A stretch of DNA of 64,000 nt from contig CAINCU010000061.1 of NCBI GenBank assembly GCA_903847155.1, positions 1 to 64,000 on the forward strand, read 5' to 3'. Positions 50,564-64,000 of this stretch are shown piece by piece; the stretch's first letter is position 1; each line of letters begins with the position of its first letter. Both the position numbers and the translations under genes were made by a program. The notes under the pieces are model-generated. The model was not told where the DNA came from, did not search any database, and saw nothing but the letters and a program-made list of their open reading frames with translations. The DNA comes from an uncultured Gallionellaceae bacterium. GTDB taxonomy: Bacteria > Pseudomonadota > Gammaproteobacteria > Burkholderiales > Gallionellaceae.

Positions 50564-52792
50564 TTAAGCGATGGATGCGAGGGCTGCATTCAAGGTTGCA
50601 CTGGGACGCATCGCGGCTGAGGTCTTGGCAAAGTCTGGGTGGTAGTAACCGCCCATATCCACCGGTTTGCCTTGAGCTGCGATCAACTCGGCGGTGATCT
50701 TCGCCTCGTTCTCGGCCAGTGTTTTTGCCAGTGGTGCAAAGCGCGCTTGCAAGTCCTTATCCTTGGTCTGTGCGGCCAGTGCTTGCGCCCAGTACATGGC
50801 CAGGTAGAAGTGGCTGCCACGGTTGTCGATCTCGCCGACCTTGCGCGAGGGAGATTTGTTGTTGTCGAGGATCTTGCCGTTGGCTTCATCCAGCGCGTCG
50901 GCCAACACTTGCGCCTTGGCGTTCTTGAAGGTCTGCGCCAGATGCTCGAGCGACACGCCGAGCGCGAGGAACTCGCCCAGTGAATCCCAGCGCAGGTAGC
51001 CTTCTTCCTGGAACTGTTGCACGTGCTTCGGTGCGGAACCGCCCGCACCGGTTTCGAACAATCCGCCGCCGCTCATCAGCGGGACGATGGACAGCATCTT
51101 GGCGCTGGTGTTCAGTTCCAGAATCGGGAACAGGTCGGTGAGGTAGTCGCGCAGCACGTTGCCGGTGACGGAGATGGTGTCCAGTCCTTTGCGCGCACGT
51201 TCCAGCGAGGCGCGGCAGGCATCGGCCGGTTCCATGATCTTGATATCGAGGCCCTTGGTGTCGTGATCCTTGAGGTACTTCTCGACCTTGGCGATGATCT
51301 GCCTGTCGTGCGCGCGGTTCTTGTCCAGCCAGAAGATGGCCGGTGTGTTGGACAGGCGGGCACGGGTAACGGCCAGCTTGACCCAGTCCTGAATCGGAGC
51401 ATCTTTAACCTGGCACATGCGGAAGATGTCGCCCTGCTCTACTTTTTGTTCCAGCAGGGTTTTGCCTGCGGCATCCACCACACGGATAACGCCGTTACCG
51501 GCTGCTTCGAAAGTCTTGTCATGCGAGCCGTATTCCTCGGCCTTTTGCGCCATCAGGCCAACGTTGGGTACGGAACCCATTGTTACCGGATCAAGTGCGC
51601 CGTTCTTTTTGCAATCGTCGATGGTGGCCTGAAATACGCCTGCGTAGTTGCGGTCGGGGATCATCGCCTTGGTGTCGTAAGCCTTGCCGTCGGCACCCCA
51701 CATCTTGCCGCCGTCGCGGATCATCGGCGGCATGGAAGCGTCGATAATCACATCGCTGGGCACGTGCAGGTTGGTGATGCCTTTGTCGGAATTCACCATC
51801 GCCAGTTGCGGCTGTTTCTTGAAGCAGGCTTGAATGTCGGCTTCGATCTCGGCGCGCTTGGCTTCCGGCAAGGTAGCAACCTTGGCCACCACGTCGCCGA
51901 AACCGTTGTTGACGTTAACGTTCAGTTCCTTGAGCGTCGCGCCATGCTTGTCAAATACGTCCTTGAAGTACACCGAGACAGCGTGGCCGAACATGATGGG
52001 ATCGGAGATCTTCATCATGGTGGCTTTCAGGTGCAGCGACATCAGCACGTTCGGCTCTTTCTTCGCGGCTTCAATCTGATCGGCGAAGAACTGGCGCAAA
52101 GCGCGAACGTTCATGGCGCATGAGTCGATCACCTCTCCTACTTTGAGCGTGGTCTTTTCCTTCAGCACGGTGGTCTTGCCGTCTGCTCCGACGAACTCGA
52201 TGCGCACCGGACCCGCTTCGGAAACGGTCACGGATGTTTCACTGCCGTAGAAATCGTTGGCCGTCATGTGCGCCACGTGGGTCTTGGAATCAGCAGCCCA
52301 TTTGCCCATGCGGTGCGGATGCTTGCGCGCAAAATTCTTGACCGACAGCGCAGCGCGACGGTCGGAGTTGCCTTCGCGCAACACCGGGTTCACGGCACTG
52401 CCGAGCACCTTACCAAAGCGCACCTTGAGTTCCTTCTCGGCTTCGTTCTGCGGATTCTCGGGGAAGTCAGGAATCTTGTAGCCTTGCGATTGCAATTCCT
52501 TGATCACCGTTTTCAGTTGCGGCACAGAGGCGCTGACGTTTGGCAGTTTGATGATGTTGGCTTCGGGCTTCAGCGTCAGTTCGCCCAGCCATGTCAGGTC
52601 GTCATTGAGCTTCTGGCTCTCGGTCAGGTTATCCGGGAAGTTGGCGATGACACGGCCTGCCAGGGAAATGTCGCGGGTCTCAACATCAACGCCCGCAGCC
52701 TTGGTGAAGGCTTGCACAATAGGCAGCAAAGAGTAAGTTGCCAGCGCTGGCGCTTCGTCAACCTTGGTCCAGTAAATGATTGGTTTGGTCAT
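50564..52792 (-). CDS. icd: Isocitrate dehydrogenase, NADP-dependent, monomeric type
   Basis: A 742-residue cytoplasmic enzyme of the large monomeric family (IDH-II), interconverting isocitrate and 2-oxoglutarate with NADP. It opens [21 protein letters not shown] and carries the substrate loop [27 protein letters not shown] (shown by its NSDRR core) and [17 protein letters not shown]. The C-terminal half includes [20 protein letters not shown] and [19 protein letters not shown]. The gene is the last of the minus-strand run, 23 bp after aconitase. In the reductive direction it would carboxylate 2-oxoglutarate, using NADPH that PntAB could supply. Confidence 0.97.
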
Positions 52793-52815
52793 GTTTGTCT
52801 CTTCAATAAATGGGG

Positions 52816-62536: not shown

Positions 62537-62552
62537 CTGCTTTCCTTAATTT

Positions 62553-64000
62553 TTAAGCCAGGCAGGCTTCAATCATTTCGTGAATCTGCATGGCCGTGGC
62601 ATTCTTTACCTCGATGGCAGCTCGCAAACACGTGGCTGAACAACTGCCGCAGCCTTCGCACAGCACTTCGTTGACCACCGCTTTACCGTTCTCCAGACTA
62701 ATCGCATTATATGGACATGCACTTACGCACATTTCACAGCCCGTACAGTGTGAATTACGTACGAAAGCCACGGTTGGCGCATGACTCAAAGTATTCTGCG
62801 ACAACAGCCCGATAACCTTGGCGGCGGCTGCACCGGCTTGGGCTACCGTCTCGGGAATATCCTTGGGACCCTGGGCGCAACCCGCTAGAAAGATACCTGC
62901 GGTAACACTCTCCACCGGCTTCAGTTTAGGGTGAGCTTCAGCCAGGAAACCATCCTTGTCGCGACCGATCTTGAGCGTTTTGGCGATTTCTGCGGTACCT
63001 TTCGATGGCTCCATGGCGAGTGCCAGCACCACCATGTCGGCATCAATCTCCACGTTTTGTCCGGTCAGCGTGTCGGTACCGAGAACCCTGATCTTGCCGT
63101 CCTTGCGGTAGAGTTTGGACACGCGGCCGCGCAAATAAATGGCTTCGTCCTCCTCCATGATGCGCTGTACAAATTCCTCGTAACCCTTGCCGCCAGACCT
63201 GATGTCGATGTAGAACACGTAGGCACGTCCATCCGGCACATGGTGCTTGTACAAGCTGGCGTGTTTAGCGGTATACATGCAGCAAATCTTGGAACAATAG
63301 GCACAGTGATTGGCAGGATCGCGCGATCCGACACACTGGATGAACACCACTTCCTTGGGCACTGTACGATCTGACGGCCTGAGCACATGTCCTTGGGTCG
63401 CGCCCGAAGCCGAGCACAGACGTTCGAATTGAAGACCATCAAGCACGTCATCAATCTGGCCGCCGCCCAGTTCGTTCATGTGTTCCTGACCATAGAGATC
63501 GTATCCGGTTGCCACCACAATGGCTCCCACATCCTCGATCAATGTCTGGGGTCGCATGTCGTAGTTGATTGCCCCGACTTCGCAAACGTCCTTGCACTTT
63601 CCGCAACGAATGGGATTCAAACCCAGACAGGCGCTTTCATCAAGCGTATAACTGGCCGGAATGGCTTGGGCAAAGGGTATATGGATGGCACGGCGTGCAG
63701 TCAGTCCAAGATCGAATTCGTTCGGCACCACGACAGGGCACACGGCAGCGCAGTCGTCACAAATCTTGCACAATTCCGCATCAACGAAAGTGGGCTTTTG
63801 CAGGATGTTGACACGGAAATTACCCACCGAGCCGCTGACCTCTTTCACCTCACTGTAGGTCATCAGTTTAATCTTGGGATGGCGCGAAACGTCCACCATT
63901 TTGGGCGACAAGATACACTGCGAGCAATCCAAGGTAGGGAACGTTTCAGAGAGCTGCAACATGTGGCCACCGATCGTGGCTTGTTTTTCTACCAGAATCA
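62553..64000 (-). CDS. hdrA: HdrA-like flavin iron-sulfur subunit, N-terminus outside the window
   Basis: The frame stays open to the window edge, so the N-terminal Rossmann/FAD part is missing; 482 codons are visible. Near the cut, EKQATIGGHMLQLSETF then FPTLDCSQCILSPKMVDV is the HdrA consensus and its Cys-x-x-Cys. Four clusters of Cys follow: CKICDDCAAVCPV, RCGKCKDVCEVG, CAYCSKICCMY and the C-terminal CTGCEMCVSACPYNAI with CEGCGSCSATCL. HdrA bifurcates electrons at its flavin. No HdrB or HdrC is visible here; they may lie beyond the edge. Confidence 0.9.
   Translation of the reverse strand, partial: ILVEKQATIGGHMLQLSETFPTLDCSQCILSPKMVDVSRHPKIKLMTYSEVKEVSGSVGNFRVNILQKPTFVDAELCKICDDCAAVCPVVVPNEFDLGLTARRAIHIPFAQAIPASYTLDESACLGLNPIRCGKCKDVCEVGAINYDMRPQTLIEDVGAIVVATGYDLYGQEHMNELGGGQIDDVLDGLQFERLCSASGATQGHVLRPSDRTVPKEVVFIQCVGSRDPANHCAYCSKICCMYTAKHASLYKHHVPDGRAYVFYIDIRSGGKGYEEFVQRIMEEDEAIYLRGRVSKLYRKDGKIRVLGTDTLTGQNVEIDADMVVLALAMEPSKGTAEIAKTLKIGRDKDGFLAEAHPKLKPVESVTAGIFLAGCAQGPKDIPETVAQAGAAAAKVIGLLSQNTLSHAPTVAFVRNSHCTGCEMCVSACPYNAISLENGKAVVNEVLCEGCGSCSATCLRAAIEVKNATAMQIHEMIEACLA

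Follow-up and report, generated by a model that had tools for sequence, protein, structure and literature searches.

Gallionellaceae are usually treated as Calvin-cycle autotrophs, and a minus-strand gene run in an uncultured member of the family raises the question of what ATP-citrate lyase (ACL) does there beside an electron-bifurcating complex of the HdrA-Flx type. The window analysed here is a stretch of 64,000 nucleotides, positions 1-64000 of contig CAINCU010000061.1 (C61; 116,498 bases) of assembly GCA_903847155.1, a genome of 3.08 Mb in 76 contigs rated 100% complete. An earlier note, made from the letters of the window, had proposed that nine genes at its end couple ferredoxin reduction to citrate cleavage in a reductive tricarboxylic acid (rTCA) cycle. 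An 18-gene minus-strand run (C61 50564-72105) has these nine genes at its 3' end; its transcription order is tfrB-tfrA-rbr-hdrC-hdrB-korD-korA-korB-korC-hdrA-flxD-flxC-flxB-flxA-aclB-aclA-acn-idh. The run is a real operon of a known kind, lying in a family for which no report of it was found and bearing clade-specific changes. With a probability of roughly 55%, it encodes the C4-to-C6 segment of the TCA cycle in the reductive direction together with its own electron supply, by bifurcation to fumarate and to ferredoxin/KorABCD.

Profile and structure matches agree with the identities given earlier to all nine genes of the window. At the 3' end, idh encodes a monomeric NADP-dependent isocitrate dehydrogenase of 742 residues (50564-52792; TIGR00178, 1315.7 bits, cut-off 950) and acn an aconitate hydratase of 648 residues (52816-54762; NF005558, 689.4 bits, cut-off 612). 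They are preceded by aclA, called by domain architecture as the large subunit of a long, putative 'type II' ACL (54994-57696; 900 residues), and by aclB for the subunit with ATP-grasp and citrate-binding domains (57808-59088; 426 residues; PF16114 and PF08442 over cut-off). Next upstream stand a flxA-like gene for an FAD/NAD(P)H and Fe-S subunit of AsrB/HydG-like type (59215-60039; 274 residues; 9nez_C, sulfhydrogenase gamma, 1.1e-49) and the flxB-like (60029-61063; PF17179 over cut-off, NF040833 and TIGR02910 below) and flxC-like (61068-62093; named by position) genes for Fe-S subunits. The frames listed earlier for flxB and flxC started too far upstream, the corrected products having 344 and 341 residues, respectively. 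The window part ends with flxD/mvhD (MvhD/FlpD), for the electron-transfer subunit to HdrA (62090-62536; 148 residues; PF02662, 166.9 bits), and hdrA, for the flavin-based electron-bifurcating subunit (62553-64502, in the window to 64000; 649 residues; NF040770 and PDB HdrA chains). The gene calls thus support both the rTCA module (acl, acn and idh) and its link to HdrA-Flx.

Consistent with what had been expected past position 64000, the adjoining sequence encodes a 2-oxoglutarate:ferredoxin oxidoreductase (OGOR), korABCD (C61 64499-67747), followed by hdrB and hdrC (C61 67758-69073). In the following, L-numbers denote DNA stretches and G-numbers genomes; L009 is C61 60001-80000, so that an L009 coordinate plus 60000 gives that on C61. 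The four subunits of the oxidoreductase are KorC (64499-65062; 187 residues; PF01558), the thiamine-pyrophosphate subunit KorB with a C-terminal tail (65074-66324, or L009 5074-6324; 416 residues; solved OGOR beta chains), KorA (66321-67487; 388 residues; NF006412, 540 bits, cut-off 411; 1yd7_A, 1.9e-110) and KorD (67484-67747; 87 residues; NF042987 below cut-off). HdrB (67758-68657; 299 residues) matches TIGR03288 with 172 bits (cut-off 345) and 7bkb_B with 6.2e-40, and HdrC (68657-69073; 138 residues) matches TIGR03290 with 81.4 bits (cut-off 160). An rbr-like gene, called by position and a weak ferritin-domain match (69084-69617; 177 residues), tfrA (69623-71350; 575 residues) and tfrB (71362-72105) complete the run. 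NCBIfam cut-offs are exceeded by three of the 18 genes (idh, acn and korA). The remaining genes are called at family level from Pfam, partial or sub-cut-off NCBIfam matches and solved structures; the naming of flx, kor, tfr and rbr is that of PMC6315080.

The 14 genes from tfrB to flxA are joined by 13 junctions of -11 to +16 bp, and for this part the earlier description as short gaps or overlaps holds. It does not hold downstream, where flxA and aclB are 126 bp apart, aclB and aclA 111 and aclA and acn 231 (acn-idh, 23), and an internal promoter before aclB is therefore possible. The terminator noted earlier after idh is a hairpin with a 10-bp stem (7 G-C pairs), a loop of 4 and T5 (50506-50483 on the minus strand); such sites show no general enrichment in the sequence, with 7 found vs 11.3 in shuffles. 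A promoter-like site, which the note had suggested seeking beyond the window, lies at C61 72291-72264 and agrees at 11 of 12 positions, such sites being as common as in shuffles (8 vs 7.8 expected). Rfam at gathering scores and a tRNA scan of the window found nothing. A gene for an HpcH/HpaI-family lyase (C61 72608-73630; L009 12608-13630) lies divergent to the operon, a position kept in the congeners G901, G891 and G888.

A chance or artefactual arrangement is ruled out by the 18 intact frames, by constraint across the run and by the matching order in other genomes. The ratio of non-synonymous to synonymous substitution rates (dN/dS) is 0.006-0.13 against the congeners G901 and G891 and the other-genus genome G812, whose stretch lacked acn and idh. 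The gene-order search proposed earlier finds korA to idh unbroken in 8 of 80 loci (the best 80 of 146), many others stopping at a contig edge, and tfrB to idh unbroken in G901, G891 and G794.

The redox proteins carry the motifs that a bifurcating complex would use. HdrA gives 810 bits to NF040770 over positions 1-640 of the 777-position profile (cut-off 1100, the profile including the MvhD part) and E values down to 4e-196 to PDB HdrA chains. A whole HdrA with Fe-S motifs and its MvhD partner are thus present, and electron-bifurcating activity is predicted from sequence. HdrC, FlxB, FlxC and KorD have two cubane (4Fe-4S) motifs each, and HdrB has both CCG motifs. TfrA retains QyHPTG, TEairGaGG, HYqnGGI and GRNRLmGNS, its best NCBIfam match being NF004900, below cut-off (348 of 718 bits). 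At the position aligned to a His of SdhA 7d6v, which we take to be the FAD-linking residue, TfrA has Asn; non-covalently bound FAD characterises those fumarate reductases that are unable to oxidise succinate. Methanogen TfrB carries a CCG (HdrB-like) half, for which a search of TfrB gave no match here, separate hdrC and hdrB genes coming after tfrA and the rbr-like gene. The pair is therefore called TfrAB-like and placed outside the methanogen thiol:fumarate reductase class.

In the reading that we prefer, NADH would be oxidised by FlxA, and its electrons would reach HdrA's FAD by way of FlxBC and FlxD, HdrA then splitting the pair. One electron would run downhill through HdrC and HdrB to TfrB-TfrA, reducing fumarate to succinate; the other would be lifted to low-potential Fe-S clusters or to ferredoxin and so drive KorABCD, which would carboxylate succinyl-CoA to 2-oxoglutarate. 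With the pair so divided, two NADH would cover two reactions of one cycle at the required 1:1 ratio. Idh, with NADPH, and Acn would then make citrate, and ACL would cleave it to acetyl-CoA and oxaloacetate. Of the rTCA steps, those of ACL, 2-oxoglutarate synthase and fumarate reductase (the last by motifs) have genes here. Within this reading we infer the direction, the electron path, the direct fumarate branch and a single transcript. Bookkeeping with midpoint potentials gives -33 kJ/mol for 2 NADH with fumarate and 2 ferredoxins, -29.5 when 2-oxoglutarate synthesis replaces ferredoxin, and about 0 with a disulfide at -140 mV, a value assumed for DsrC. A cluster with this order in the tubeworm symbiont Endoriftia is co-expressed, and an identical electron model has been put forward for it (PMC11636981).

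Several observations weigh against this reading. TfrA is almost as close to L-aspartate oxidases as to fumarate reductases, and the transcript is perhaps split at the 126-bp and 231-bp gaps. In Endoriftia, where KorABCD lies between HdrA and HdrBC according to the accessible sections of PMC11636981, tfrAB are the exception to the co-expression of the cluster. G788 has the module from tfrB to flxA and no AclA match; acl genes sought in its 20-kb stretch, which extends ~5.5 kb past flxA, were not found. The genome also holds seven DsrC-family genes, so HdrB could have a thiol-disulfide partner, and two citrate synthase genes (on C53), so an oxidative cycle is possible.

The DsrC-family genes bear on an account in which operon and direction are the same, HdrBC delivers its electrons to a trisulfide or disulfide of DsrC type, a path put forward for Flx-Hdr in other systems, and TfrAB is fed otherwise. 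HdrB is slightly nearer to CoB-CoM HdrB (172 bits) than to the SdhE anchor of MFR (165), and the Endoriftia paper, in the sections accessible, gives the fumarate/OGOR and DsrC electron models side by side, offering the latter as an alternative path (PMC11636981). A low-potential disulfide would, however, leave almost no driving force at the assumed -140 mV, and none of the seven genes is on C61. Absence of DsrC failed as a test between the acceptors, as DsrC-family matches occur in all five cluster genomes tested, which itself suits this account. We regard it as rather unlikely.

The citrate synthases, together with the one RuBisCO large-subunit gene of the genome (on C28), would suit a reversed flow, with KorABCD oxidising 2-oxoglutarate and HdrA-Flx confurcating to NADH in the oxidative TCA cycle of a Calvin-cycle autotroph. 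RuBisCO is found in 33 of the 37 family genomes that carry AclA or HdrA, a co-occurrence observed as directly as the gene calls, their order, conservation and constraint. Yet ACL is without obvious use in an oxidative cycle, TfrA resembles a fumarate reductase lacking the presumed FAD-linking His, and confurcation would need an electron donor to HdrB, for which succinate is improbable. Reversed flow is distinctly unlikely.

The distribution of the genes separates the parts of the operon. AclA is matched in 4 of 399 genomes of an order sample (the window's own and G358 with this kind, two SucD-like only), and three more matches occur among 369 genomes of a class sample. At E values of at most 1e-100, AclA is matched in 33 of the 158 species genomes of the window's family, the window's own among them, from 7 of 15 genera; for HdrA the figures are 24 genomes and 5 genera. 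The 37 carriers divide into 20 with both, 13 with AclA only, some of them fragmentary assemblies, and 4 with HdrA only. In G907 and G842 of these four the HdrA contig also bears aclB or part of aclA, and in G867 it is too short; the fourth is G788. The carriers include Sideroxydans sp. DeMMO3_12 (G892, of the window's genus), 'Ca. Ferrigenium altingense' (G776) and several Gallionella. Bifurcation as coupled to citrate cleavage as such, the earlier proposal, is not supported: the tight spacing is confined to Tfr-Hdr-Kor-Flx, from which the acl block can be separated (HdrA is unmatched in 13 of the 33 AclA genomes).

Nor is the earlier assumption supported that ACL is diagnostic of the rTCA cycle. 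AclA relatives of ~58-63% identity are present in Variovorax, Caballeronia, Paraburkholderia, Thauera butanivorans, Bradyrhizobium and others, with no kor or hdr match in the examined flanks. At L060, L062-L065, L067-L069, L073-L075, L077, L082 and L090, loci that include one or more of Gemmobacter, AclA/AclB relatives are ~58-62% identical and likewise without such matches. ACL alone is an unsafe rTCA marker in betaproteobacteria. In G835, a second AclA, 60% identical (C11:9157-11844), is found beside a family-type AclA in the same genome. Relatives of this kind give some substance to the view that the acl block only supplies acetyl-CoA from citrate and that its place beside Hdr-Kor is meaningless, as does the persistence of acl-acn-idh in four genomes that retain a remnant of flxA. 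Against it, acn and idh travel with acl, further 2-oxoacid oxidoreductases are encoded in the ACL-only genomes (POR_N is matched in all 37 carriers, in one of them under the family cut-off), and Rnf or KOR genes stand beside acl in some of them. We consider it highly improbable.

The Tfr-Hdr-Kor-Flx module was sought across 20 kb in each of seven ACL-only loci (L177-L183) and found in none. A decayed 3' end of flxA (FlxA residues ~231-274) lies directly before aclB in G844, G776, G777 and G835 (L177, L178, L179 and L070), all ACL-only and one of them 'Ca. Ferrigenium altingense'. Two of the four remnants have internal stop codons, and the match in G777 is weak (25 residues, E 0.002). Most likely, these genomes once had the module and lost it by deletion. 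Where the module is missing, a possible substitute adjoins acl: Gallionella STA_17 (L031, G828) has rnfA, C, D, G and E before aclB, each over its family cut-off, and Gallionella STC_117 (L044, G824), with G827 alike, has a two-subunit 2-oxoacid oxidoreductase and a TfrA-like flavoprotein after idh. Weak Fe-S-type matches occur at a similar place before aclB in G848. As judged from gene content, the cluster is modular, the slot beside ACL being filled by different modules predicted to reduce ferredoxin or to synthesise 2-oxoglutarate. This gives the best comparative support for the proposed function, and the modularity looks new.

The window's genome has an Rnf row of its own on C28, consisting of rnfB-like, a gene for a 1639-residue protein like pyruvate:ferredoxin oxidoreductase (PFOR), rnfC, rnfD, rnfG-like and rnfE (L025 5834-15326; C28 ~160.8-170.3 kb), which ends ~8 kb before the RuBisCO gene; rnfC, D and E are over their cut-offs, rnfB and G below. 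The earlier expectation of 2-oxoacid oxidoreductases in the rest of the genome is borne out by korABCD; the second, PFOR-like protein, which gives 427 bits to TIGR02176 (cut-off 911), is a candidate pyruvate synthase. Frames of 1641-1672 residues with POR_N, like this protein, occur in four congeners.

Vertical inheritance of the whole block was rejected for its acl part. The window's HdrA groups with its genus (G901 and G892; 100/97), whereas its AclA groups with G768 and G839. A single clade of this AclA and those of five congeners has an approximately unbiased test p of 2.5e-45, the group being set post hoc by kinship label after identities had been seen. DNA identity to G901 is 89-92% at 51-55 kb, 77-84% at 55-60 kb and 84-87% at 60-65 kb. 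These sequence comparisons indicate that members of the family have exchanged the acl part. Among the relatives sampled, the AclA clade of the family, which takes in two metagenome-assembled genomes (MAGs) labelled Hydrogenophilales, is sister to alpha-, beta- and gammaproteobacterial AclA (support of the union 99, of that group 80).

In AclA itself, a SucD-like part (~20-300) is followed by a degenerate copy of citryl-CoA lyase (~405-615) and by the citryl-CoA-lyase domain (616-890). The nearest solved sequence to the SucD part is citryl-CoA synthetase 6hxq_A (7e-34), and the aclB product matches 6hxq_B, of the same enzyme, at 3.4e-36 and the ACL 6hxi_A at 4.2e-21. Both ACL subunit genes are thus present by architecture, with no ACL-specific NCBIfam model over cut-off and citryl-CoA synthetase as the nearest solved enzyme. 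The profile of 405-615 aligns with that of 616-890 over 193 columns (P 1.2e-11), against P values of 0.055 or higher for the controls (one reversed, one from the SucD domain and five with shuffled columns). At least some of the additional residues thus form a second, degenerate copy of the citryl-CoA-lyase domain. In the alignment, HTGFAHGG (706) and EIDDHINRGR (876), presumably the catalytic motifs, are seen in the second copy only. The predicted structure has a predicted template-modelling score (pTM) of 0.59, and the Foldseek overlay of the long chain on ACL has a root-mean-square deviation (r.m.s.d.) near 17 Å, which makes any domain arrangement read from it tentative. By length and extra domain, the 900-residue AclA would fit type II ACL. 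Type II ACL is called unusual in PMC3522073, the accessible part of which is without the word 'duplication', and the degenerate second copy looks new.

A further change lies in KorB. Its matches to solved OGOR beta chains stop by residue 273, and from position 290 a tail of 127 residues, with 28% Lys, 28% Ala and a net charge of +34, resembles histone H1. KorB ends are readable in 23 of the 24 HdrA genomes of the family (24 copies; not G842), and all 24 copies have the tail, of 101-186 residues and net charge +22 to +39, ending in KTRK in 21. L042, from a MAG labelled Hydrogenophilus, has a tail of 98 residues. In all eight outgroup loci with a cluster of this kind (L022, L024 and L049-L054) the end measures 20-40 residues with a net charge of 0 or less; the comparison left out Endoriftia and T. 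mobilis. From these sequences, the H1-like tail looks new and specific to the clade sampled. A search of the genome for an origin in another gene found the tail only, a weak test with a low-complexity query. Histone H1 and PhaM are polyanion-binding analogues, and by this likeness one might guess that the tail binds a polyanion. On a bolder and clearly unlikely account, Flx-Hdr-Kor-Tfr would be one bifurcating assembly anchored by the KorB arm to polyphosphate, nucleoid or RNA, making half of the rTCA cycle a localised metabolon; the operon would be ancestral in the family and decay by deletion of the module, with Rnf or a two-subunit KOR replacing it.

The rbr-like protein has weak matches to ferritin-like folds (best E 0.056). 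A match is present in 12 loci; in L049 and L054, where tfrA and hdrC are present, none was seen. ExxH-type motifs are kept in the gammaproteobacterial copies. By alignment by eye, the second His is lost in all eight family copies and the first in six of eight, both being lost in G788 and in the genus of the window. The rest of the sequence is conserved (dN/dS 0.046-0.090), and a structural role is possible.

The arrangement as such is neither new nor unknown to science, although the earlier note did not know it from betaproteobacteria. Such a cluster was described for Thioflavicoccus mobilis, for symbionts of tubeworms and for one gammaproteobacterial MAG, with a suggested electron feed to OGOR and fumarate reductase (Rubin-Blum 2019, PMC6315080), and it is also covered in the accessible sections of Mitchell 2024 (PMC11636981). 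The novelty lies in the host family and in the variation within it. A report of the cluster in Gallionellaceae was not found in literature titles, abstract starts and selected passages, supplements not being covered. In a pangenome study of 103 Gallionellaceae genomes, the carbon-fixation section names only RuBisCO and the main text, as far as accessible, is without TCA, citrate, oxoglutarate or heterodisulfide (PMC10734462). The accessible parts of two further papers on the family are without mention of TCA or citrate (PMC12607638, PMC11784278). From sources likewise available in part, a Sideroxydans MAG has the Calvin-Benson-Bassham (CBB) cycle and Nitrospira is the only full rTCA bin of the sediment cores concerned (PMC6137239), aclB was found in Nitrospira and not in Betaproteobacteria (PMC9516098), and one Ferrovales-related betaproteobacterial MAG has all CBB and rTCA genes (PMC6094481).

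If ACL is indeed present in about one fifth of the species and the bifurcating module in about one seventh (33 and 24 of 158), genes for two carbon-fixation routes would be common in a freshwater family and not an oddity of vent symbionts. The family is a natural experiment, with full operon, ACL only, Rnf beside ACL and module without ACL, and the role of bifurcation is testable because related genomes are in these differing states. The ACL-only state is that of 'Ca. Ferrigenium altingense' (G776), which comes from enrichment culture AG, according to the accessible part of PMC11784278.

Elsewhere in the window are genes for a PPK2 polyphosphate kinase (16604-17503), an HD domain fused to a hemerythrin domain (17949-19514), a FabMG enoyl-ACP reductase (19683-20999) and a YcaO protein with YcaO_C (24086-25840). 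The NAD(P) transhydrogenase genes pntAB lie at 8595-11630, ~39 kb from the cluster.

Among known systems, the strongest overall likeness is to the cluster of the tubeworm symbionts (Endoriftia and the Escarpia symbiont) and T. mobilis, with which the operon shares aclAB, acn, idh, korABCD between hdrA and hdrBC, tfrAB, rbr and flxABCD, and RuBisCO, Rnf and pntAB at the level of the genome. However, the host family here is betaproteobacterial, a glutaredoxin-domain gene and not mdh follows idh, and mdh, pntAB and rnf are not integrated, pntAB being inside the symbiont cluster and here at a distance, with Rnf on C28; the three may not be integrated in every known member of the cluster either. 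Further differences are the H1-like tail of KorB, with the KorB of Endoriftia and T. mobilis outside the comparison, and the lack of the usual His ligands in the Rbr-like protein of the window's genus. All of FlxA, FlxB, FlxC, FlxD, HdrA, HdrB and HdrC of the NADH-dependent Flx-Hdr bifurcation complex (FlxABCD-HdrABC) are encoded, but kor separates hdrA from hdrBC and tfrAB is part of the operon, two traits shared with the tubeworm symbionts. The thiol:fumarate reductase of methanogens (TfrAB) is resembled by TfrA through NF004900, below cut-off, and not by TfrB, which is without the CCG half. With type I ACL (Chlorobium, 6hxj) the enzyme shares the SucD-like and citryl-CoA-lyase architecture and an ATP-grasp partner, whereas AclA, with 900 residues vs 617, is ~300 residues longer, ~210 of them forming the degenerate copy.

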